Assembly (NCBI RefSeq): GCF_007860015.1 | Contig: NZ_SJPS01000001.1 | Location: forward strand, 1,178,001-1,242,000 | Reading direction: 5' to 3' | DNA length: 64,000 nucleotides | Source of the DNA: Bythopirellula polymerisocia | Lineage (GTDB): Bacteria; Planctomycetota; Planctomycetia; Pirellulales; Lacipirellulaceae | Made by a program: the position numbers and the translations under genes | The notes under the pieces: generated by a model | Seen by the model: the letters and a program-made list of their open reading frames with translations, nothing else | What the model was told of the DNA's origin: nothing | Database searches by the model: none | Part shown: piece after piece, positions 500 to 40,039 of the stretch | How positions within the stretch are numbered: position 1 is the stretch's first letter | How the letters are laid out: each line of letters starts with the position of its first letter

Positions 500-1303
500 T
501 CAGTTCTGGTTAGTTTTCAGTGACCGTGCAAAATCTTTTGGGTTTGCTTCTTTCATGCGACCCGACTCGACGAGTGCCAACTGGTCTCGAGATCGGGGCC
601 CAGTTGCCACGTCGAGGCGCTGTTCCAGCAGGGCGATTCGCGCGGCAAGTTGCTCATGCAGCGTCCGTGCTTCTGCGACGGTAGGTTCCTCGATCTCGGC
701 CAAGAGATCGGGCCGATGCAGCCGCAGTGTTTCGAGCGTCAGTGCATCCCACTGGAACTTGGCCGGCGTTCCTTCGGAGTCGGCTTCCTGCTGTTCAAAC
801 AAGCCCTCGGTCGTTGCCGGGTCGGCCACCAAATCGACACTCTGCACACGCGTTATTTCTTCGACGACGAGTCCGCCATCGGTCCGGGTGACGCGGGCTT
901 GCACATTGTGCGAGAAGCCGACGTTGCGCGGATTGTGCTCAGCATCCCACACCAGTTGCTCGGCCAAAGCATGCCGTGGATTGAAATGCAGATTGCCGAA
1001 CAACCCTTCGCCGGCGCGAAACTCGACGCCGCGAATGATGCCGATGCGATCTTGATAGTCTCTCGGTGCAAGTGGCCCTTCCTTCGGGTGATTCACATTC
1101 ACCCGCGCCTCTTCATACAGCGACACCGCCTGCGAGAGTGCCAATTCACGATATTGCCGCCCGTTGCGGGAGCTGAGCCCGATGAGCTTCACCCCCGTAA
1201 GCACTCCCACCGTGGGATCCACTCGCAAGGCGATTCCCCGCGAATCGCTGTATTCCTGCAAGTTTTCGACATGATTGTCAGTTGTTGGCTCGATCGTCGT
1301 CAT
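500..1303 (-). CDS. Phage prohead protease / scaffold-type protein
   Basis: The 267-residue product has the layout of a phage prohead maturation protease or protease-scaffold fusion. An N-terminal domain carries VLTGVKLIGLSSRNGR, then VNVNHP with the conserved His, and VGFSHNVQARV followed by IXRVQSVDLVADPATT, which matches the catalytic His and Ser region of these enzymes. The C-terminal 80 residues are charged and helical, as in scaffolds. The ATG at 1301-1303 is chosen over an upstream in-frame start because GGAGA sits 8-9 bases before it, and because the upstream extension would be read through a terminator hairpin. The cement protein gene follows 74 bases downstream on the same strand. 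Canonical head modules place this gene right after portal; here portal is 11 kb away on the other strand. Confidence 0.7.
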   Translation of the reverse strand: MTTIEPTTDNHVENLQEYSDSRGIALRVDPTVGVLTGVKLIGLSSRNGRQYRELALSQAVSLYEEARVNVNHPKEGPLAPRDYQDRIGIIRGVEFRAGEGLFGNLHFNPRHALAEQLVWDAEHNPRNVGFSHNVQARVTRTDGGLVVEEITRVQSVDLVADPATTEGLFEQQEADSEGTPAKFQWDALTLETLRLHRPDLLAEIEEPTVAEARTLHEQLAARIALLEQRLDVATGPRSRDQLALVESGRMKEANPKDFARSLKTNQN

Positions 1304-1324
1304 GATTGGTCTCCGTGATTGCAC

Positions 1325-1369
1325 AAAAAAAGCCCCGAGCGAAACACGATGTGTGTCTCGATCGGGGCT
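1325..1369 (-). terminator. Strong intrinsic terminator hairpin facing the prohead protease gene
   Basis: Read on the minus strand, an AGCCCCGA arm pairs with TCGGGGCT and the stem continues inward to about 16 of 17 pairs, followed by seven T residues (1325-1331). It ends about 20 bases upstream of the prohead protease start, so it either stops transcription arriving from the YezD-like gene side or acts as a leader terminator for the phage operon. Confidence 0.8.
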
Positions 1370-1416
1370 GGAACACGATACCACCGTGAAAGGTAGCCCT
1401 GTTAGATACCCGGAAT

Positions 1417-1755: not shown

Positions 1756-1856
1756 GGCGCGAGTTATGAGTTTCGAGGCGCGAGAAGCATGTAGGATGGG
1801 TGCTTGCACCCATCTTCTCCTTACCACAAATCTATGGGTGCGAGCACCCATCCTAC
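1756..1856. repeat. Two adjacent palindromic repeats ('gcgcgag..ttcgag' and 'gtaggatgggtgc' families)
   Basis: Bases 1756-1784 hold a gcgcgagttatgagtttcgag unit of the family also seen at 7046-7130 and 9406-9480. Bases 1791-1856 hold a long hairpin whose arms are gtaggatgggtgcttgcaccc and its near-perfect complement; the same element recurs at 12310-12374. The rest of 1693-2158 has no convincing gene. Confidence 0.75.
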
Positions 1857-7045: not shown

Positions 7046-7130
7046 TATCGAGTCACGTGTTTCGAGTTGCGAGTTAGAAAAATGCGATAACACTTTTCTC
7101 GCAACTCGAAACCCGTAACTCGTAACTTAC
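7046..7130. repeat. Palindromic repeat, 'tttcgagttgcgag' family
   Basis: The arm gtttcgagttgcgag and its complement ctcgcaactcgaaac are separated by about 25 bases, flanked by outer arms gagtcacg and cgtaactcg. The same family occurs at 1756-1784 and, inside a coding sequence, at 9406-9480. Confidence 0.75.
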
Positions 7131-7187
7131 TCCCAGATGTCAGACCATTTTCACTGACAATTTATCCAACCAAAAAGGAGAATTCTT

Positions 7188-7871: not shown

Positions 7872-7882
7872 AAGTGCGGAGG

Positions 7883-7988
7883 AAATTAGACGCGGATGAA
7901 CGCAGATAAAGCAGATTGTCGCGGATTCGACATCGCAATGATCCGCGAACATCCACACGATCAGCGTTCATCCGCGTTCCATTCTTCC
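7883..7988. repeat. gcggatgaacgcagat palindromic repeat, copy 1
   Basis: The arm attagacgcggatgaacgc and the complementary arm gcgttcatccgcgttc enclose a ccgcg-containing centre. Related full copies lie at 14692-14815 and 23101-23212, halves at 16250-16305, and diverged copies near 50593-50625 and 50912-50990. Confidence 0.8.
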
Positions 7989-8903: not shown

Positions 8904-8987
8904 GGTAGTCGCTAGTTGTTGGGCACTAGGCGCTAGTATGAATTTGGTTGACTAGCGCCTAGCGTCTAGTAGCTAGCCCCTCAGTGA
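8904..8987. repeat. Palindromic repeat, 'tagcgcct' family, copy 2
   Basis: Arms cgctag..gggcactaggcgctagt and actagcgcctagcg..gctagcccct form a hairpin starting at the stop codon of the ParB-like gene. It matches the element at 1417-1510. Confidence 0.75.
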
Positions 8988-8999
8988 GGACTAAAACTA

Positions 9000-10151
9000 A
9001 TGAGTAAACGCGAAATCCAAGTTTCCTGCCCCGTTCCTTCCTCTTTCCGTGTGCAGCAGGTGGCAGGGATGTTTGATGTGCCGCTGGGGGAGAAATGCAC
9101 CGAGCGGTTTTCGGTGCAACTGCCGGGGCGGGAAGAGGACTGGGACGTGGGTCTCATCGTCGGCCCCTCAGGGAGCGGCAAGAGCACCGTCGCGCGGGAA
9201 TGTTTTGGTGACGTACTCGCCGGCGCTGCCGACTGGCAAGCGGACAAAGCCGTCGTCGATTGCTTTGGCGAGTTGCCCATGCGGCAAGTTGTCGAGCTAT
9301 TCACTGCCGTGGGATTCAGTTCGCCTCCGTCCTGGGTGAAGCCGTATCAGGTGCTTAGCACAGGGCAACGATTTCGGTGTGATCTGGCGAGGGCGTTGGG
9401 GAGAAGTTTCGAGGCGCGAGTTCCGAGTTGCGAGAACAAGGAATCTTCATCACTCGCAACTCATAACTCGAAGCACGCGCCTATCCTCGCCTTCGACGAA
9501 TTTACCAGTGTTGTTGATCGTACGGTGGCTAAGGCTTGTTCGATGGCGATTGCCAAGGGGATTCGACGCGGGAACATTCCGTGCCGGTTCGTGGCGGTGA
9601 CTTGCCACTACGATGTGGCTGAGTGGCTCGAGGCGGATTGGGTGTTGGACATGGCCACGGGTCGGCTAGAACGGAGGCGGCTTCGGCGGCCATCTATCCA
9701 ACTGGAAATCTATCGCTGCCAGTTGGCTGCTTGGCAACTGTTTGCGCGACATCACTATCTGAGCGGCAAACTCGCACGGAGCGCCCGTTGTTATCTGGCC
9801 CTCTGGAATGGCGAGCCGGTTACTTTTTGTGCAACGTTGCCGATCATTGCCCAGAAAAACCATCGCCGCTTCACGCGGATAGTGACGCTCCCCGATTTTC
9901 AAGGGATGGGCATCGGCATGCGGGTCGTTGCGGCGGTTGCAGAGTTGCATCGGCAAGCAGGATTGCGAATCAATGTCACGAGCAGCCACCCGGCTTTGAT
10001 TCGGCATTGCAAATACTCGCCGCAGTGGAAAACAGTGAGTGTCCGCAAAGCCGGCGCGCGGAGGCGACAATCGGCGCGGTTCCAGGATTATCGCAGTGCC
10101 ATCGGCCGCGCAGTGGTGTCGTTCGAGTTTGTGGGGGAAAGCAATGAGTAG
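9000..10151 (+). CDS. ABC-ATPase fused to GNAT acyltransferase domain (COG2401-like), with repeat-encoded insertion
   Basis: The 383-residue fusion has an N-terminal ABC ATPase: Walker A GPSGSGKST at 55-63, signature LSTGQ at 119-123, Walker B ILAFDEF at 162-168 and H-loop His203. A GNAT domain follows (about 235-383) with the acyl-CoA motif LPDFQGMGIGMRV at 297-309. This pairing is known as COG2401; the phage Mu Mom DNA-modifying enzyme is also a GNAT-fold protein, so a DNA-modification or packaging role is an inference. Normally the signature helix runs straight into Walker B; here about 24 residues (137-160) are added, and their DNA (9406-9480) is a palindromic repeat known from intergenic sites in the window. 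The TAG stop is the first part of another repeat. Confidence 0.75.
   Translation: MSKREIQVSCPVPSSFRVQQVAGMFDVPLGEKCTERFSVQLPGREEDWDVGLIVGPSGSGKSTVARECFGDVLAGAADWQADKAVVDCFGELPMRQVVELFTAVGFSSPPSWVKPYQVLSTGQRFRCDLARALGRSFEARVPSCENKESSSLATHNSKHAPILAFDEFTSVVDRTVAKACSMAIAKGIRRGNIPCRFVAVTCHYDVAEWLEADWVLDMATGRLERRRLRRPSIQLEIYRCQLAAWQLFARHHYLSGKLARSARCYLALWNGEPVTFCATLPIIAQKNHRRFTRIVTLPDFQGMGIGMRVVAAVAELHRQAGLRINVTSSHPALIRHCKYSPQWKTVSVRKAGARRRQSARFQDYRSAIGRAVVSFEFVGESNE
9406..9480. repeat. Palindromic repeat inserted in frame inside the ABC-ATPase gene
   Basis: The arm tttcgaggcgcgagttccgag..gcgag and its complement ctcgcaactcataactcgaag lie within the coding sequence, without frame change or stop. 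Same family as 1756-1784 and 7046-7130. Confidence 0.8.
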
Positions 10152-10247: not shown

Positions 10248-10697
10248 ATGGACGACACCCAGATCAACGACAGCGACAAGCGGGCCTTGCGGACGATGCT
10301 TTTCGTGGGGTGCGATCGTGAGATGGCGGCCAAGGTGTTGGGGTGGACCGCTGAGAAATTGCGCAAGGCGTTGGAGAGTGATACCGAGTTCGCCAACGAG
10401 CTGCTGCAAGCCGAGGGGCAGGCCGAGTTCCACCACATGCGGGTTCTGCACAACGCAGCCAAAGACGAGAAGCATTGGCGGGTGGCAGCCTGGTGGCTGG
10501 AACGCCGGGCAAAACGACGCTACGGCCGCCGCTCGCAACGAGACCTGACCGACACTCAATTGGAGGATTTCATTGAGAATCTCGCCCGGATCATCCAGTC
10601 AGAAGTCACGCAGGACGAAGATCGCCAGCGGTTATTAGAAAAGATGGCGGAGTTTTTGCGTGGCGAGAGCCAAGAAATCACCGAGCCGAGCCCATGA
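10248..10697 (+). CDS. Phage terminase small subunit
   Basis: The 149-residue product has an N-terminal helix-turn-helix-like region (DSDKRALRTMLFVGCDREMAAKVLGWTAEKLRKALES) that would bind the packaging start site, a helical middle that would form the oligomer, and an acidic C-terminus that contacts the large subunit. Its 3' end overlaps the large-subunit ATG by four bases (ATGA), the typical coupling of these genes. Assignment rests on size, fold pattern and position rather than a strong motif. Confidence 0.7.
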   Translation: MDDTQINDSDKRALRTMLFVGCDREMAAKVLGWTAEKLRKALESDTEFANELLQAEGQAEFHHMRVLHNAAKDEKHWRVAAWWLERRAKRRYGRRSQRDLTDTQLEDFIENLARIIQSEVTQDEDRQRLLEKMAEFLRGESQEITEPSP

Positions 10698-12313
10698 CCG
10701 ATCCCGAGGAAAATCTGAAAACCGAGTTGAAAAGTAACTCGGCGAAGTCTCTTCGAGCGTTGTTTGCAGACTTGTATCGAGCCATCACGCGAGGTAGTCG
10801 GCGAGAACTGCATTTATCAAAGATGTCCACGCTCGCCTGGGGACGCACCTTTCTCGTCAGTCACTTTTCGTGTGCTCCCTCGAAGATGCACTGCTGGTTG
10901 GGTGAGCATCTCGACACGCTGCACGAGGAGCGGGGATTTAAGATCAATGTGATCGGCCCTCGCGGCGGGGCCAAGTCGACGATCGCCACGTTGGCCTACG
11001 TGTTGCGGGCAGCGCTGGAAGGATGGGAGCCTTATATCTGGGTCGTGTCCGACACCCGCTCCCAGGCGTATGGCCACCTGGACAACATCAAGCAGGAACT
11101 GCTCACGAACCCACACCTTGCCGACGAATATCCAGAGGCGATCGCCGGCGGGTGCAACTACAAGACCGAGAAGATCAGGCTGAAGCATGGCGCCGTGATC
11201 GAGGCCTACGGCACGGGGCAACGACTGCGCGGTCGCCGAGTCGGCGCGAATCGTCCCTCGCTGATTGTATGCGACGATTTGCAGAACGATGGGCACATGC
11301 AGTCGGCTTACCTGCGCGAGACGAGCAGCTCCTGGTTCCATGGCTCGCTCTTGAAGGCAGGAGACAAACACACGAACATTCTCAACCTCGCAACGGCACT
11401 GCATCGCGATGCCCTGGCGATGCAACTTGATCGCACACCGGGTTGGCTCTCCGCCAAGTTTCGCGCGATCGAGCGCTGGCCGGACAACATGGAATTGTGG
11501 GCCAGTTGGGAACGCATCTATGCGGACGTTTCCCGACCTGATGCGGGGCGTGCCGCCTGGAATTTCTTTCAGAAGAATCGCCGAGCGCTCGAAGCCGGCG
11601 CGGAACTCCTGTGGCCAGCGCGGGAGGATCTCTACACGCTGATGAAAATGCGAGTCCAGGAGGGGCACGCCACTTTCGAGCGCGAAAAGCAGAGTTCCCC
11701 CATCGATCCCGCGCGGTGTGAATGGCCGGCGGAGTATTTTGGGGACCACATTTGGTGCCGCGACTGGCCTGCCGACTTGCAGTTCAAGACGATCGCTCTC
11801 GACCCGAGCAAAGGCCGCGACTCGCGGCACGGCGATTACTCGGCTTTGGTCGTGCTGGGGATCGACCGCTGGGGCGTGCTGTATGTCGAGGCCGATCTCG
11901 CCCGGCGACCGACTCCTGAGATCGTGGCCAGCGGCGTGGCGCTCTGTCGGCGGCATCAAGCCGATGCCTTCGGAGTCGAAGCGAATCAGTTTCAGGAACT
12001 CTTGTGCGATGAGTTCGTCGCAGAGTTTGCGCGGCAGGGAATCCATTGGTGCGTTCCCGCGGCAATTCATAACCATGTGAACAAACAGGTACGCATTCGC
12101 CGCTTGGGGCCGTATCTCGCGCAGCGGAAAGTGCGGTTCCTGCAAGGCAGTCCCAGTACGCAGTTGTTGGTGGATCAGTTACGCGATTTTCCCCTCGGCA
12201 CCCACGACGACGGCCCGGATGCATTGGAGATGGCGCTGCGCCTGGCGGAAGAGTGGCACGGTGGAGAACGGCGCAACGACGGTTTGGGGAGCCGGCTGCG
12301 CGTCGACATGTAG
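10694..12313 (+). CDS. Phage terminase large subunit
   Basis: The 539-residue DNA-packaging motor shows both domains. The ATPase has Walker A-like GPRGGAKS at 88-95 and Walker B SLIVCDD at 189-195. The RNase-H-like nuclease has IALDPSKGRDSRHGDYSALVVLG (Asp370, Asp381) and the final metal-binding HDDGPDALEM near 504-513. Length is normal. It pumps DNA into proheads through the portal and cuts concatemers. The gene looks intact, with all catalytic acids present, so the module is not obviously decayed. The TAG stop is part of the gtaggatggg repeat that starts at 12310. Confidence 0.92.
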   Translation: MTDPEENLKTELKSNSAKSLRALFADLYRAITRGSRRELHLSKMSTLAWGRTFLVSHFSCAPSKMHCWLGEHLDTLHEERGFKINVIGPRGGAKSTIATLAYVLRAALEGWEPYIWVVSDTRSQAYGHLDNIKQELLTNPHLADEYPEAIAGGCNYKTEKIRLKHGAVIEAYGTGQRLRGRRVGANRPSLIVCDDLQNDGHMQSAYLRETSSSWFHGSLLKAGDKHTNILNLATALHRDALAMQLDRTPGWLSAKFRAIERWPDNMELWASWERIYADVSRPDAGRAAWNFFQKNRRALEAGAELLWPAREDLYTLMKMRVQEGHATFEREKQSSPIDPARCEWPAEYFGDHIWCRDWPADLQFKTIALDPSKGRDSRHGDYSALVVLGIDRWGVLYVEADLARRPTPEIVASGVALCRRHQADAFGVEANQFQELLCDEFVAEFARQGIHWCVPAAIHNHVNKQVRIRRLGPYLAQRKVRFLQGSPSTQLLVDQLRDFPLGTHDDGPDALEMALRLAEEWHGGERRNDGLGSRLRVDM

Positions 12314-12374
12314 GATGGGTGCTTGCACCCATGAATTTGGAGATGGAGAAGATGGGTGCAAGCACCCATCCTAC
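12310..12374. repeat. Palindromic repeat, 'gtaggatgggtgc' family, copy 2
   Basis: Arms gtaggatgggtgcttgcaccca and tgggtgcaagcacccatcctac flank about 20 bases. The first arm supplies the TAG stop of the terminase gene. Matches 1791-1856. Confidence 0.85.
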
Positions 12375-12419
12375 GAAACATTGAACAACACAACTTCACA
12401 ACCTTAAAGGAGAAAACCC

Positions 12420-13796
12420 ATGTCAAACACCACCCGCTTGGAACGTCGCCTTACCGAAGCCTGCGACGCTCTGTGGGATCTGTTTGTCGATCCGCGCGAC
12501 GCCTATCTCGACGACACCGGCCAATGGTGGGACAGTGTCGCCACCAACGGCCACGCAGGCCCCGGTGTCAGCGTGCCGTTTGCGACTGAAGCACAACTGG
12601 CCGACATTCGCAATCAGGTCCGCCATCTCGCTGCGACGAACGAGTTCGCCATCAATGGCATCGAAAACCGAGTGAGCTATCTCGTCGGCACGGGCCACGT
12701 CTATCGGGCGTGCGTTCGCAAAGGATCGCACGCCAGTGGCGAATTGGAAACCGACGTTCAGGCCGTCATCGACGAATTTCTCGAAGTGAACCATTGGCAA
12801 TCACGGCAACAAGAGATTGTGCGGCGATTAGACCGGGATGGCGAGGCTTTCCTGCGATACTTCGTCGATTCGCACGGCATAACCCGTGTGCGGTTTGTCG
12901 AGCCCGCTCAAGTGGCGACGCCGCGTGAACTGCAGAATGTCCCCGAGGCAAGCTTTGGCATTCACACTGAGCCGCACGACGTGGAGTCGGTGCTGGGTTA
13001 CTACCTTGATGGCCAGCCGATCGACGCGGCGATGATTCAGCATCGCAAGGCGAATGTCGATGCCAATGTGAAACGGGGTCTGCCGCTCTATTACCCCGTA
13101 CGCAAGAATCTGCGGCGAATCGACAAACTGCTCCGCAACATGAGCGTGGTGGCCGAGATCCAGTCGGCCATCGCCCTGATTCGCAAGCATCGAGGTGCGT
13201 CGCGCAGCGGCGTGGAGCAGTTCGTCGCCGATCAGAGTCAGACAACTTCCGCCGGCAGTCGCACGCGGCAACTGTCGCACTACGCCCCGGGAACGATCCT
13301 CGATGCGCCGGCGGGCTTGGAGTACGATTTCCCCGCCGCAGGGATTGACGCGAGCAATTTTGTCGCCGTGTTGCAGGCCGAACTCCGCGCGGTCGCCGCC
13401 CGGCTGGTAATGCCAGAGTTCATGTTCACCTCCGACGCGTCGAACTCGAACTACGCTTCGACGCTGGTGGCCGAAGGCCCCGCAGTAAAGATGTTCCAGC
13501 GTCTGCAAGCCGGCCTAGAAACCGACGACCGCGACGTGATGTGGCGGGCTGTTGAAAACGCTGCCTTGGCAGGACGATTACCGAACGACATTCGCCGTCT
13601 GGTCGACATCCAGATCACCCCTCCATCTTTGGAAGTTCGCAACCATTTGCAGCATTGCCAAGTCGAAAAGATCGCTTTCGAGAAAGGCATCCTTTCGCCG
13701 CAAACTTGGAGCCTGAAGCTGGGGCTTGATTACGACCAGGAGCAAAAGAACTTGGCGATGCATCAGGAAGAAATTGTAGGCTGGAACGAGCGGTAG
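12420..13796 (+). CDS. Phage portal protein
   Basis: The 458-residue protein starts at an ATG preceded by AAGGAG and follows the terminase gene, the standard position for portal. Features typical of siphovirus portals include an N-terminal helical stretch with INGIENRVSYLVGTG, the LRRIDKLLRNMSVVAEIQSAIALIRKH stem/clip region, a low-complexity central loop, and a C-terminal VMPEFMFTSDASNSNYASTLVAEGP followed by a long helix, which matches the conserved 'asnyss' segment of the family. It forms the dodecameric ring through which DNA enters. Capsid genes would be expected next but are absent here; they appear inverted at the left window edge. Confidence 0.85.
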   Translation: MSNTTRLERRLTEACDALWDLFVDPRDAYLDDTGQWWDSVATNGHAGPGVSVPFATEAQLADIRNQVRHLAATNEFAINGIENRVSYLVGTGHVYRACVRKGSHASGELETDVQAVIDEFLEVNHWQSRQQEIVRRLDRDGEAFLRYFVDSHGITRVRFVEPAQVATPRELQNVPEASFGIHTEPHDVESVLGYYLDGQPIDAAMIQHRKANVDANVKRGLPLYYPVRKNLRRIDKLLRNMSVVAEIQSAIALIRKHRGASRSGVEQFVADQSQTTSAGSRTRQLSHYAPGTILDAPAGLEYDFPAAGIDASNFVAVLQAELRAVAARLVMPEFMFTSDASNSNYASTLVAEGPAVKMFQRLQAGLETDDRDVMWRAVENAALAGRLPNDIRRLVDIQITPPSLEVRNHLQHCQVEKIAFEKGILSPQTWSLKLGLDYDQEQKNLAMHQEEIVGWNER

Positions 13797-14490: not shown

Positions 14491-14968
14491 GAATCGTTCC
14501 TGGTGTGAGAGGGGCGCGATGACACGGATTTGCACGCCCTGTCTAATTATAGAGCGCATTCACAGGCCAGAACGAGCCGTAGTCCGCCGCGACGGATTCC
14601 GGCATGATTTGTTTGACACCATGGCCACAGCACGGCACTGGCCGCAACCAAAATAGCAAACAGGTGAATGGGTGACTGCTCAGATGTTTATGGAAGAAAT
14701 AGAACACGGATAAACGCGGATTGGGCAGATTTGCGCGGATCAGATTGCTTGCCTTGGTAGGAATCAGCGAGAATCTGCCTAATCGGCGTTTATCCGCGTC
14801 TAATTTCCTCCCTCTGTGATTCATCCCCTTTTTTGAAAATTGGATGCGTGCCGGAACTACGCACGGCTTGTTCCGGCCTACGGGTTGATGGGCCTTGATT
14901 GCACTTTATGGGCGGGTTGATTCTAATAGGGTTCCTCATCCAAGAGACTCCTGCGAAAGTGGTGTTCA
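14491..14968. repeat. 478-base gap filled with palindromic repeats
   Basis: No gene is supported. Contents: a partial gtaggccggaac-type element (14573-14607), a full gcggataaacgcggat palindrome (14692-14815, arms acacggataaacgcggatt and aatcggcgtttatccgcgt), and another gtaggccggaac-type half (14846-14881). Confidence 0.75.
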
Positions 14969-16249: not shown

Positions 16250-16305
16250 AGTAGAAATAGAACGCGGATGAACGCGGATTAGACGGATAGACGCAGATCA
16301 AAGCG
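16250..16305. repeat. gcggatgaacgcggat half repeat
   Basis: One arm (aacgcggatgaacgcggattagacgg..) of the family seen at 7883-7988, without its partner, between the serine hydrolase and a small membrane protein. Confidence 0.6.
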
Positions 16306-16358
16306 ATTCAGCACACATGCACCAAAGACAATTGGCTGTGTTCTCGCAAGGATTAGGA

Positions 16359-21884: not shown

Positions 21885-23099
21885 ATGTCCGATTGTCGAT
21901 TGATTTTGTCCCTGCTCTCAGTGACCTTGGTGTCGTCTGGCAATCACTCCTGCGCCGATGTGTTTCATCTGGCAGAGGGTGGGCAAGTGGTCGGGCAACT
22001 TGTCGAGAGCGGGGAGGACGGCCAATATGTTGTGAAATCTAAGCTGGGTGGCATCGTCACTCTCACCAAAGAGCAAGTGGAAGATGTCGAAAAGCAAAGC
22101 GAGCATCAGCAAAACTATGAGGCCCGGAGCCGCGCCCTTCCCGACACGGTCGCCGCCCATCGCTCGCTGGCTGATTGGTGCAAGCAGAATTCGCTTTCCG
22201 ATCTGGCTGATCACCACTTGCAGAGAATTCTGGAGTTGGATCCCGACGACCCGCAAGCACGGGCTAGCTTAGGCTACCAGCTTCATAAAGGTAAATGGCT
22301 CACTCGCGACGAAATCATGGCCGTGCGTGGCATGCACTTCTACGAAGGCAAGTATCGCACAGCTCAGGACATCGCCCTGCGTGAACGGGCCAAGGTTCGC
22401 GAGACAAGCTCGGCTGAATGGTTTCAACAGCTTCGCCTTTGGCGAGACTGGCTCGATTCCAAACGTGGTACTCGCGCCGACGAAGCCTTGACCAACTTGC
22501 GTGCCGTGACCGACCCTGCGGCGGCCACCTCGCTGGTGAAGCTTCTCAATAGCGAAAGGGATCTGGATGTCCGCGATCTGTGGATGGAAATCCTGGCCCA
22601 AGTCGATCATCCCGCCGCAGTCGGAAAGTTGGTTGACCTCTCGCTCGACGAGCCGGATCGCGAGACGCGGCTGCAGTGTCTCGACTATTTGCTGCGAACC
22701 CGGCGGACCATCGATATCACACCATACATTAAGGCCCTTAAGAGTCGTGACAACGTGACAGTAAACATTGCTGCCGAATGTCTCGGCATGATCGGCAATA
22801 AGGAAGCCATCAGTCCGCTGATCGATGCCTTGGTGACTACCCACAAATTCGCTAATCCCAACGCCCAGCAGGGAGACATGCAAGCCTCGTTCTCACCCGA
22901 CGGAAGTGGCGGAGCTGGTTTCAGTGCCGGTGGGGGACCAAAGATTATTAAGCAAGACCTGCAAAACGTGGAAGTCCGCCGTGCGCTAGTGCAACTCTCC
23001 GGCTCGCAGGATCACGGCTTCAACCCGATGGCGTGGCGGCGGTGGTTTGTGAATCAACAGAGTAGCACGACCTTTATTGATCCGCGACGCGATCAATAA
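21885..23099 (+). CDS. Exported TPR/HEAT-repeat protein, unknown function
   Basis: The 404-residue product begins with a signal-like segment (LILSLLSVTLVSSGNHSCADV), then an SH3-like strand set (FHLAEGGQVVGQLVESGEDGQYVVKSKLGGIVTLTKEQVEDVEKQ), a short TPR-like section (LADHHLQRILELDPDDPQARASLGY) and HEAT repeats (DPAAATSLVKLLNSERDLDVRDLWMEILAQV; NKEAISPLIDALVTTHK). It ends with a glycine-rich segment. Such proteins are common in Planctomycetes and serve as scaffolds; partner unknown. Confidence 0.65.
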   Translation: MSDCRLILSLLSVTLVSSGNHSCADVFHLAEGGQVVGQLVESGEDGQYVVKSKLGGIVTLTKEQVEDVEKQSEHQQNYEARSRALPDTVAAHRSLADWCKQNSLSDLADHHLQRILELDPDDPQARASLGYQLHKGKWLTRDEIMAVRGMHFYEGKYRTAQDIALRERAKVRETSSAEWFQQLRLWRDWLDSKRGTRADEALTNLRAVTDPAAATSLVKLLNSERDLDVRDLWMEILAQVDHPAAVGKLVDLSLDEPDRETRLQCLDYLLRTRRTIDITPYIKALKSRDNVTVNIAAECLGMIGNKEAISPLIDALVTTHKFANPNAQQGDMQASFSPDGSGGAGFSAGGGPKIIKQDLQNVEVRRALVQLSGSQDHGFNPMAWRRWFVNQQSSTTFIDPRRDQ

Positions 23100-23100
23100 G

Positions 23101-23212
23101 AAATTGAACGCGGACAAACGCGGATTTGTCGAATTCGCGCGGATTATGAAACATGAATATCTTCACTCCATGAGTATCCGTCCAATTAGCGCTCATCAGT
23201 GTTCTATTCCTT
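23101..23212. repeat. gcggacaaacgcggat palindromic repeat, degenerate copy
   Basis: The arm gaacgcggacaaacgcggatt and complementary pieces gagtatccgtcc and gcgctcatcagtgttc surround the 3' ends of two convergent genes. It overlaps the last codons and stop of gmd. Confidence 0.65.
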
Positions 23213-38326: not shown

Positions 38327-40039
38327 ATGAATGGTCCATGCTTTACTTTGCCACTGCTTTGCCTTGTCTTAAACTGTTCTGTCGGAGTGCCGCTCGCATT
38401 ATCGCAGACAGTTTCGCCGCAACAATTGACTGAAGAATGGGTCGAGAAAGTGGCTGCGCCGCTGGTTGAAAATCAAGTCGCCGATGGCCTGTCGATCGGC
38501 TACATCGAAGGCGAACACTGGGGAATCGTCCACCTGGGGACCTCGAACCGAGCCAAGATAAAAGCCGATAACCTGACCGTTTATGAGATAGGCTCGGTAA
38601 GCAAAGTTTTTACGGGGCTACTGCTGGCCGATGCGGTAGTGCAGGGCGAAATTGACTTAAACGCAGCCGTGGAGGTTGCCAATCCGGCTGGGATTCAGTT
38701 GCCGTCGCGTAATGGTCGGTCGATCCAGTGGATTGATCTGAGTACTCACCGGTCGGGGCTGCCGCGACTGGCCGATAATTTGCCACTGACCAATTTGACG
38801 AATCCCTATCGTGACTACGATTCCAACAAGGCAGCGGAGTTTCTGAACCAGTACGAACTGCCCCGCCAGCCTGGCGAGTCGCAGGAATACTCCAACCTCG
38901 GCGGGTCGGTGCTCGGATATTTGGTCGCGCAGAAGGCTGGTAAGTCCTATGAAACGTTGCTGCGAGAGAGAATCGCCGAGCCACTGCGAATGACCGATTG
39001 CACCATTGCACTGAGCAGCGATCAGAGGAAACGGCTCGCAACGCCGCATGATAAATTCGGCTCTCCTACAGCGCTCTGGACATTTGCCGACCTGCCGGGC
39101 GCCGGTGGAATTCACGCCACGATGCGTGACATGATGCGTTTCGCCAAGGCGCAATTGACCCCGCCAGCTGGCCACCTCGGAGAAGCAATCGAAATGGCTT
39201 GGACGCAACAATGTGATGCCGACGCATCGGGTCCCGCGATGGGGCTTGGTTGGATGATTGCGGGCGATGGTCAAACCCGTTGGCACAACGGTCAGACCGG
39301 TGGGTCGCATTCGGCACTCTTCATTAATCGCGAGTTGGAGTGCGCAGTCGTTGTGCTATGCAACACAGCCTTAGCCAACGAAGTCGATCAACTGGCGATC
39401 CAGATGATAAAGAAAGCAGCAGGGCAGGACGTTGCCCCAGAACCAAGCAAGGCCCCTCAAGAGGCATCGAGTGATCTAGCCATCGATGCGAAGTTACGCG
39501 GCCGGTTGGTGGGTCGATATCAGCTGGCGCCAGATTTTATTTTCGATGTTCAAGATCGTGACGGGCACTTGATGGTGGGAATTACCAATCAACCCACCCA
39601 AGAGGTCTACCCTGATTCCCCCAGTCGCTGGTCCTACCGCGGAGTCGACGCCACCCTTGAATTCAATCTGACGAAATCTGGTCCCGCCCAGAGCTTGGTT
39701 CTTCATCAAAATGGTGCTGAGCAGATTGCTCGCCGAGTTAGCAAAGCGTCAGATGATGCAAAGGGAGATCTCGCCATTGATGCGAAGCTTCGTTCTCGCC
39801 TGGTCGGTCGCTATCAACTCGCACCCAACTTCATCTTCAATGTACAGGATCGCGACGGGCGCCTGATGGTGGGAATTACCAATCAACCGACCCAAGAGGT
39901 GTTTCCAGATTCTCCCACTCGTTGGTCCTACCGCGGGGTCGATGCCACGCTTGAGTTCAAACTGACGAAGACCGGTCCCGCCAAGAGCCTGGTACTGCAT
40001 CAGAATGGTTTAGAGCAGACTGCTCGTCGGATCAAGTGA
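38327..40039 (+). CDS. Secreted serine hydrolase (beta-lactamase family) with tandem duplicated C-terminal domain
   Basis: The 570-residue product has a signal peptide (LLCLVLNCSVGVPLALS), a penicillin-binding-fold domain with the nucleophile Ser90 in GSVSK (89-93), YSN in QEYSNLGGSVL and HNG in RWHNGQTGG, so it should be active, unlike its neighbour. After a linker, about 90 residues occur twice (383-480 and 481-570): each copy runs DLAIDAKLR..RLVGRYQLAP..F and IF..VQDRDG to YRGVDATLEF. Copies share most residues, so the duplication is fairly recent. The domain resembles C-terminal DUF3471-type barrels of this family. Divergent from the ECF sigma gene. Confidence 0.82.
   Translation: MNGPCFTLPLLCLVLNCSVGVPLALSQTVSPQQLTEEWVEKVAAPLVENQVADGLSIGYIEGEHWGIVHLGTSNRAKIKADNLTVYEIGSVSKVFTGLLLADAVVQGEIDLNAAVEVANPAGIQLPSRNGRSIQWIDLSTHRSGLPRLADNLPLTNLTNPYRDYDSNKAAEFLNQYELPRQPGESQEYSNLGGSVLGYLVAQKAGKSYETLLRERIAEPLRMTDCTIALSSDQRKRLATPHDKFGSPTALWTFADLPGAGGIHATMRDMMRFAKAQLTPPAGHLGEAIEMAWTQQCDADASGPAMGLGWMIAGDGQTRWHNGQTGGSHSALFINRELECAVVVLCNTALANEVDQLAIQMIKKAAGQDVAPEPSKAPQEASSDLAIDAKLRGRLVGRYQLAPDFIFDVQDRDGHLMVGITNQPTQEVYPDSPSRWSYRGVDATLEFNLTKSGPAQSLVLHQNGAEQIARRVSKASDDAKGDLAIDAKLRSRLVGRYQLAPNFIFNVQDRDGRLMVGITNQPTQEVFPDSPTRWSYRGVDATLEFKLTKTGPAKSLVLHQNGLEQTARRIK

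Follow-up and report, generated by a model that had tools for sequence, protein, structure and literature searches.

The Rickettsia palindromic elements (RPE), 105-146 bp long, are described as lying both between genes and in frame within conserved proteins, and a Rickettsia guanylate kinase that carries an RPE insert is active (PMC2229807). Intragenic REPs, which bear GTAG or CGTC tags, are short palindromes inside genes, many of them genes of DNA repair; flexible linkers or loops have been proposed as neutral sites for them, Planctomycetes are among the carriers, and different REPs occupy about the same recB site in X. campestris and X. oryzae (PMC3733652). Repeats made of 7-nt units have been reported from Xanthomonas and Nostoc, where they are mainly intergenic, under-represented in coding regions and, in Xanthomonas, found as inverted pairs (PMC4692102), and from the Beggiatoaceae, whose 7-nt TAACTGA repeats are also mainly intergenic (PMC4679880). 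In the mitochondria of Nematomorpha, long inverted repeats lie in working genes, with both arms coding for conserved protein (PMC6649704).

Here we describe an in-frame palindrome in a gene of Bythopirellula polymerisocia (Planctomycetota, Pirellulales, Lacipirellulaceae), found in a stretch of 64,000 nt (contig NZ_SJPS01000001.1, positions 1,178,001 to 1,242,000, forward strand) that we call the window and to which all coordinates refer. We consider it likely that genome-specific palindromes built of heptads land widely and that, in proteins, the copies that survive are those lying in frame in permissive loops. Among the papers listed by a search of the open-access literature, which mostly leaves out subscription papers, none had a title concerned with heptad palindromes in proteins of planctomycetes.

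A palindrome between two motifs of an ABC-ATPase/GNAT protein

The gene and the parts of its insert are as follows.

9000..10151, + strand: 383-aa fusion of an ABC-type ATPase with a GNAT acetyltransferase domain (domain matches, fold, PHROG)
9162..9185, + strand: Walker A, GPSGSGKS, residues 55-62 (sequence and alignment)
9354..9368, + strand: signature, LSTGQ, residues 119-123 (sequence and alignment)
9399..9482, + strand: 28-residue linker with the palindrome, residues 134-161, between ARAL and ILAF (relatives compared)
9407..9434, + strand: left arm, four degenerate heptamers NNNCGAG (TTTCGAG GCGCGAG TTCCGAG TTGCGAG)
9435..9452, + strand: spacer of the palindrome, by eye unlike the spacers of other copies
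9453..9473, + strand: right arm, three inverted heptamers (CTCGCAA CTCATAA CTCGAAG)
9483..9500, + strand: Walker B, ILAFDE, residues 162-167 (sequence and alignment)

The open reading frame matches phrog_11143 (E 5e-98), which is annotated in PHROG as of unknown function, Acetyltransf_1 (E 1.5e-6) and, short of the cut-off, ABC_tran (E 7e-4). We take GPSGSGKS, LSTGQ and ILAFDE to be Walker A, signature and Walker B, respectively, and use COG2401-type as what we presume to be the name for such ABC-ATPase/GNAT proteins; ABC motifs and a GNAT domain are both present, as judged from motifs, domain matches and fold. The protein resembles the COG2401 type in this fusion and differs in that its clade has an enlarged linker between signature and Walker B. 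Across the 23 rows of an alignment the catalytic motifs do not vary. Among the 45 relatives with a linker of at most 7 residues, 37 have one of 5 residues; the window protein has 28, so that about 23 residues are extra.

The inverted-repeat score of the window linker was reached in 1 of 200 dinucleotide shuffles and in none of 58 other segments of the gene. Its fold energy, calculated with RNA parameters, has a z of -3.8 (0 of 300 shuffles were as low), and its best lag is 7 nt (0 of 200 shuffles). An initial sequence-only reading of this DNA had proposed an in-frame palindromic repeat between signature and Walker B, and both the shuffle tests and the linker lengths bear this out.

Copies of the palindrome family in the same genome

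Three places in the window, none assigned to a strand, contain repeats of this or of another heptad family.

1756..1784: single-arm copy of the window palindrome family
7046..7134: intergenic copy of the window palindrome family
8911..8977: palindrome of a GGCGCTA/CTAG heptad family, the same family as the linker insert of another genome (L157 of G313)

Absence of the family from the rest of the genome had been named by the sequence-only reading as evidence against itself, but the family is present there: the 6.14 Mb genome gave 33 matches at a limit of E<=1, of which 11 reach E<=0.01 (query included, palindromes counted on both strands). The claim of that reading, made for the window, that the family is otherwise intergenic did not hold for the genome: at 4 of the 23 places read with their flanks, the copy lies within a conserved reading frame, namely the ABC/GNAT gene, mutS and, twice, a dehydrogenase. 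The two dehydrogenase copies are in a single alcohol-dehydrogenase/GFO-IDH fusion, and the mutS copy stands just before the Walker A strand. This count leaves out copies in long stop-to-stop frames (L005, L006, L022 and others); those of L005 and L022 (at the very N-terminal end of the frame) and of L006 (ahead of the only Pfam match) were not counted because they may precede the real start. A repeat confined to intergenic DNA was rejected as a candidate on the evidence of the in-frame copies in mutS and the dehydrogenase, and one family is thus present in intergenic DNA as well as, in frame, inside conserved proteins, as coding palindromes of the RPE kind are.

The window holds other repeats besides. 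A second family (ACGCGGATGAACGCGGAT) lies at 7881-7983, 14692-14811, 16253-16307 and 23099-23146, the first two places being palindromic; a 35-nt GCCGGAA repeat, 97-100% alike, stands at the edges of the phage module (10148-10182, 13830-13867, 14849-14884); a near-identical hairpin pair, GTAGGATGGGTGC..GCACCCATCCTAC, is found at 1788-1859 and 12307-12377; and at 39446-40029 a 290-nt unit occurs twice, 78% alike, with 4 nt between the copies.

Many dissimilar palindromes at one linker

The ABC/GNAT protein is found in 126 of 397 genomes of the class (E<=1e-40). Relatives comprised the best 80 of 85 loci on viral contigs and the 4 useful loci among 8 listed from genome contigs, and the DNA around 80 of the listed places was taken for reading the linker. 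The linker pattern read 122 genes, the window's included, and missed 15 genome and 27 viral rows, some with longer linkers (L065, L182, L183, L189); L041 and L156 do not differ in their linkers, nor do L056 and L173, and each pair probably represents a single genome that was counted twice. The linker has at most 7 residues in 45 of the 122 genes and at least 8, up to 83, in 77. In a quick tree, made from an alignment without the linkers, the long ones fall mostly in the clade around the window protein (those outside it are L113, L186, L188, L192, L193 and L224).

A significant palindrome, with a score that no more than 4 of 200 shuffles reached, is present in 22 of the 77 long linkers, against about 2 expected. 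That every long linker is a palindrome was considered and does not hold at 22 of 77; the other 55 count against our explanation, and we infer that long non-palindromic linkers are decayed inserts. With the duplicate L056 removed, 21 palindromic linkers fall by pairwise local alignment against shuffles into 17 dissimilar groups, a number that hangs on the cut-off (a score of 34 together with 0 of 100 shuffles). We rejected a domain insertion of the ordinary, lineage-specific sort, since the relatives' linkers share no sequence. None of their printed linkers is the same segment as that of the window, and homologues holding it over unrelated DNA, which the sequence-only reading had named as evidence against itself, were thus not encountered. 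The best period of the 21 palindromic linkers is 7 nt in 15, as in heptameric repeats and in the genomic copies from G257 described below, and 8 nt in 2; the 4 with no significant period speak against our explanation.

Neighbouring branches of the tree differ in what fills the site. Palindromes of different groups are carried by the sister rows L037/L038 (SH-aLRT 95) and L032/L036 (SH-aLRT 96), and L153 has a short, non-palindromic linker where that of its sister L157 is filled (SH-aLRT 99). L031 and L033 share by eye one kind of insert, clean in L031 and in L033 eroded and no longer significant. Also against our explanation is L053, 57% identical, with a linker of just 6 residues, and the loop therefore need not be filled. 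In two genomes the ABC/GNAT gene is frameshifted (L174 in G325, L228 in G343), either through real decay or through an assembly error. The L174 insert contains a stop, within a palindrome that by eye is of the GTCGAGA type, so either not every copy is tolerated or the assembly is wrong.

Insert families across genomes

One set of ten genomes was screened with each of six inserts, and matches were counted at E<=0.01 (query and both strands included). The L157 insert has 28 matches in its host G313, 31 in G094, 4 in G000 and 0 in the other seven; the L167 insert 50 in its host G227, 3 in G390, 1 in G079 and 0 in the other seven; the L195 insert 71 in its host G257, 1 in G390 and 0 in the other eight. 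The L158 insert has 14 in its host G094, 22 in G227, 13 in G257, 1 each in G390 and G254 and 0 in five; the L166 insert has 13 in its host G372 and 0 in the other nine, and the window insert 11 in its own genome and 0 in the other nine. All six therefore have further copies in their own genome, and two of the six have no match in the other nine genomes. Two results run against our explanation: the L158 insert is commoner in G227 than in its own genome, though the G227 matches are weaker, and the L157 family is about equally common in G094 and in its host. The families are thus not strictly confined to one genome, though each insert has relatives in its own.

When fifteen further genomes, two of them of the same genus, were searched with the window insert, there was one match, in G118. 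The family was not found in the two same-genus genomes at E<=0.01, and their linkers are 17 and 18 aa long and non-palindromic.

A second site in MutS and further inserts

MutS was searched in 77 genomes of the order and matched in 74. The 50 loci read were the 30 best and 20 chosen ones, four of these chosen for matches split at the loop, and the counts are accordingly no unbiased rate. The loop exceeds 14 residues in 11 of the 50, has 9 to 11 residues in 36 and is short by eye in 3. Five of the 11 long loops are palindromic, four at <=2 of 200 shuffles and the fifth (L316) by eye. Inserts thus recur at a second site, the MutS loop that precedes the Walker A strand. In each of the three genomes compared, the MutS insert matches the ABC insert (0 of 300 shuffles each); against our explanation, 1 of 6 cross-genome comparisons of MutS with ABC inserts also gave 0 of 300. 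In L341 (G254) the MutS loop has 74 residues with, by eye, arrays of AAGGCGG, AAATTGC, CAACGAC and CCCTCTC, which look as if inserts were nested in inserts.

The ABC proteins have other inserts of at least 6 residues, at residues 44-46, 71-75, 89-92, 196, 221-234 and 355. Clear palindromes are found among them, but many of the inserts are not palindromic; on the model of the window protein their sites fall in loops or no more than about 1 residue from where a helix or strand ends. The ABC gene L195 (G257) holds three inserts, at residue 44 (CCCCAAT units, one arm), in the linker and at residue 196, the last two of one family.

Architecture of the repeats

In 20 copies from G257 the arms have 2 to 8 units, mostly 7 nt apart. 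The arms of different copies are alike (0.68 against 0.20 when shuffled), the centres barely so (0.31 against 0.26, 91 pairs), and the flanks are at chance (0.17 against 0.17 and 0.16 against 0.16). Fixed terminal inverted repeats like those of MITEs are not seen in this one family, given the 2 to 8 units and the flanks at chance, and single-arm copies exist among the places of the window family. By eye no target-site duplication was seen, in sisters too divergent to show much. Within 12 nt of the outer end, 19 copies from G257 gave GTAG 0, CTAC 0, CGTC 1 and GACG 1, and 16 from G000 gave GTAG 1, CTAC 2, CGTC 0 and GACG 0; the tags of REPs are thus not a feature of the two families checked. 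Y1 transposase (Y1_Tnp) is found in all ten genomes, with 6 matches in G000, and no heptad array lies beside the three transposase copies inspected.

Variable arms, barely similar centres, chance flanks, single-arm copies and the lack of fixed termini are what would be expected if nothing had been inserted: the linker would be hypervariable and under low constraint, slippage and template switching at hairpins would generate heptad palindromes on the spot, and their likeness to other places of the genome would reflect a genome-wide mutational habit. We regard this as unlikely, because a heptamer is shared among the copies and between the MutS and ABC inserts of one genome; independent slippage would not be expected to yield a shared heptamer, and some template must be copied. 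The arrays were, on this argument, probably copied in rather than formed in place.

Openness of the repeat units to translation can be proposed as a driver of their spread. Of 17 typed units, 14 are open in all six frames, as are half of all 7-mers; since in addition the G227 copies are no more frame-open than their own flanks and the G313 copies are stop-rich, this stays a suggestion.

The phage-type cassette

The ABC/GNAT gene stands among genes of phage type.

8349..8903, + strand: ParB-like protein (phrog_723, E 3e-13)
10248..10697, + strand: terminase small subunit, TerS (phrog_4102, E 1e-8)
10694..12313, + strand: terminase large subunit, TerL (phrog_38, E 2e-71)
12420..13796, + strand: phage portal protein (phrog_21, E 1e-37)

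These neighbours agree with the placing of the repeat, by the sequence-only reading, in a phage-type module, here one of the Lacipirellulaceae; that the module is what makes the case special is not supported, since mutS of the same genome shows the same kind of insert. The order ParB-ABC/GNAT-TerS-TerL-portal is kept in many genomes of the order (L149-L228), usually with one ABC/GNAT copy, and the cassette is possibly a domesticated phage or a module like a gene-transfer agent. The product of 503-1384 (- strand), labelled in PHROGs as of unknown function, is presumably a head maturation protease. Its homologue lies downstream of the portal gene on the same strand in all 37 loci of relatives with both positions (two of them from the same genome); in the window it is 11 kb upstream of the portal gene, on the opposite strand, with by eye PEP-CTERM protein and oxidoreductase genes in between, and the cassette seems to be split.

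Among loci with long linkers, an inverted-repeat score of at least 45 is reached by 6 of 46 ABC genes, 3 of 43 ParB, 1 of 38 TerL, 1 of 37 TerS and 0 of 37 portal genes, and one of at least 35 by 15, 9, 7, 3 and 11, respectively; the 38 other ABC rows have 2 at >=45 and 7 at >=35. The lead of the ABC gene over its neighbours thus depends on the threshold.

The preservation of the cassette in many genomes and the enlargement of the loop in most of the clade would fit a palindrome that is kept for use, whether as an RNA hairpin tuning the phage operon, as a binding site or as a fast-changing loop in contact with a host- or phage-specific partner. We think this improbable to a marked degree, given 17 groups without a common sequence, long linkers that are mostly non-palindromic, and inserts of this kind also in mutS and in a dehydrogenase gene, neither of which would be expected to use them in this way.

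Fold and constraint

The predicted model of the window protein has a mean pLDDT of 89, falling to 54 at residues 141-150 and 73 at 151-160. This low-confidence stretch of the linker lies between the helix 121-139 and the strand 162-165, with a confident fold on both sides, and the nearest solved folds include both a GNAT acetyltransferase and ABC domains. Over 12 chosen pairs, dN/dS ranges from 0.04-0.33 in the ATPase part to 0.08-0.36 in the GNAT part, values that are rough because dS exceeds 1 in 11 of the 12 ATPase comparisons and some pairs include codons upstream of the start. For L031/L033, which share one kind of insert, it is 0.14 in the ATPase part. With the same caution, the two parts appear similarly constrained and the host protein, like those of RPE-kind palindromes, is under constraint.

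The sequence-only reading had left a tolerated surface loop and a dead ATPase as alternatives; constraint, invariant motifs and a confident fold favour the former. That the insert, placed as it is between two catalytic motifs, abolishes ATPase function and leaves a working GNAT part is very improbable, even with the frameshifts of L174 and L228 in its favour, because similar constraint on both parts, the 0.14 of L031/L033, motifs invariant in 23 rows and the confident fold all stand against loss of the ATPase alone. The protein seems to stay intact around its inserts and, as far as sequences and a model indicate, the protein with its insert probably works.

Discussion

We return to the reading that genome-specific heptad palindromes land widely and are sieved by the protein. 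The insert would be one copy of a family, specific to its genome, in which degenerate 7-mers form two inverted arrays on either side of a spacer with little conservation. Families of this kind would multiply within the genomes of Pirellulales and come to lie at many sites; in proteins, selection would spare those copies that keep the frame, contain no stop and lie in a permissive surface loop, and we infer that the filter is the tolerance of the protein fold. The loop from signature to Walker B of the ABC-ATPase/GNAT protein would have been filled repeatedly, in the tested cases by families with copies in their own genome, the MutS loop before the Walker A strand would be another permissive site, and inserts would later decay into anonymous linkers.

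Like RPE, palindromes of the window type occur in intergenic DNA as well as in frame within conserved proteins; unlike RPE, they belong to Pirellulales, consist of 7-mer arrays whose centres are poorly conserved, come as many families at a single site, and are set apart by this architecture (PMC2229807). With intragenic REPs they have in common short palindromes in genes, sites in loops and differing repeats at one site, and they differ in tags, which were not found on the two families checked, in arms that are arrays of 7-mers and in 17 groups at one site (PMC3733652). They share 7-nt units with the heptamers of Xanthomonas and Nostoc and of the Beggiatoaceae (PMC4692102, PMC4679880); in contrast to the former, reported as under-represented in coding regions, they lie in frame in proteins (PMC4692102). 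Unlike the palindromes of Nematomorpha mitochondria, the palindrome here is an extra loop (PMC6649704). In-frame palindromes were thus already known; what look new are the heptad architecture and the repeated filling of a single loop from many families.

A tentative possibility, which we would not favour at present, is that heptad palindromes represent a separate, hitherto undescribed form of self-propagating DNA, in which a 7-nt word is copied as inverted arrays, with no fixed element moved by a transposase and with each lineage evolving a word of its own. Since 7 is not divisible by 3, a word free of stops would be open in all three frames of its strand, and proteins would be invaded unusually easily. 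If this is true, permissive loops of ABC-class ATPases record each lineage's current word.

Across an order of environmental bacteria, a single protein loop carries 17 dissimilar groups of palindromes, and MutS has a second such loop. Short, freshly filled and eroded sites form a natural series in which the copying of small repeats, and non-coding DNA becoming protein, may be studied directly.
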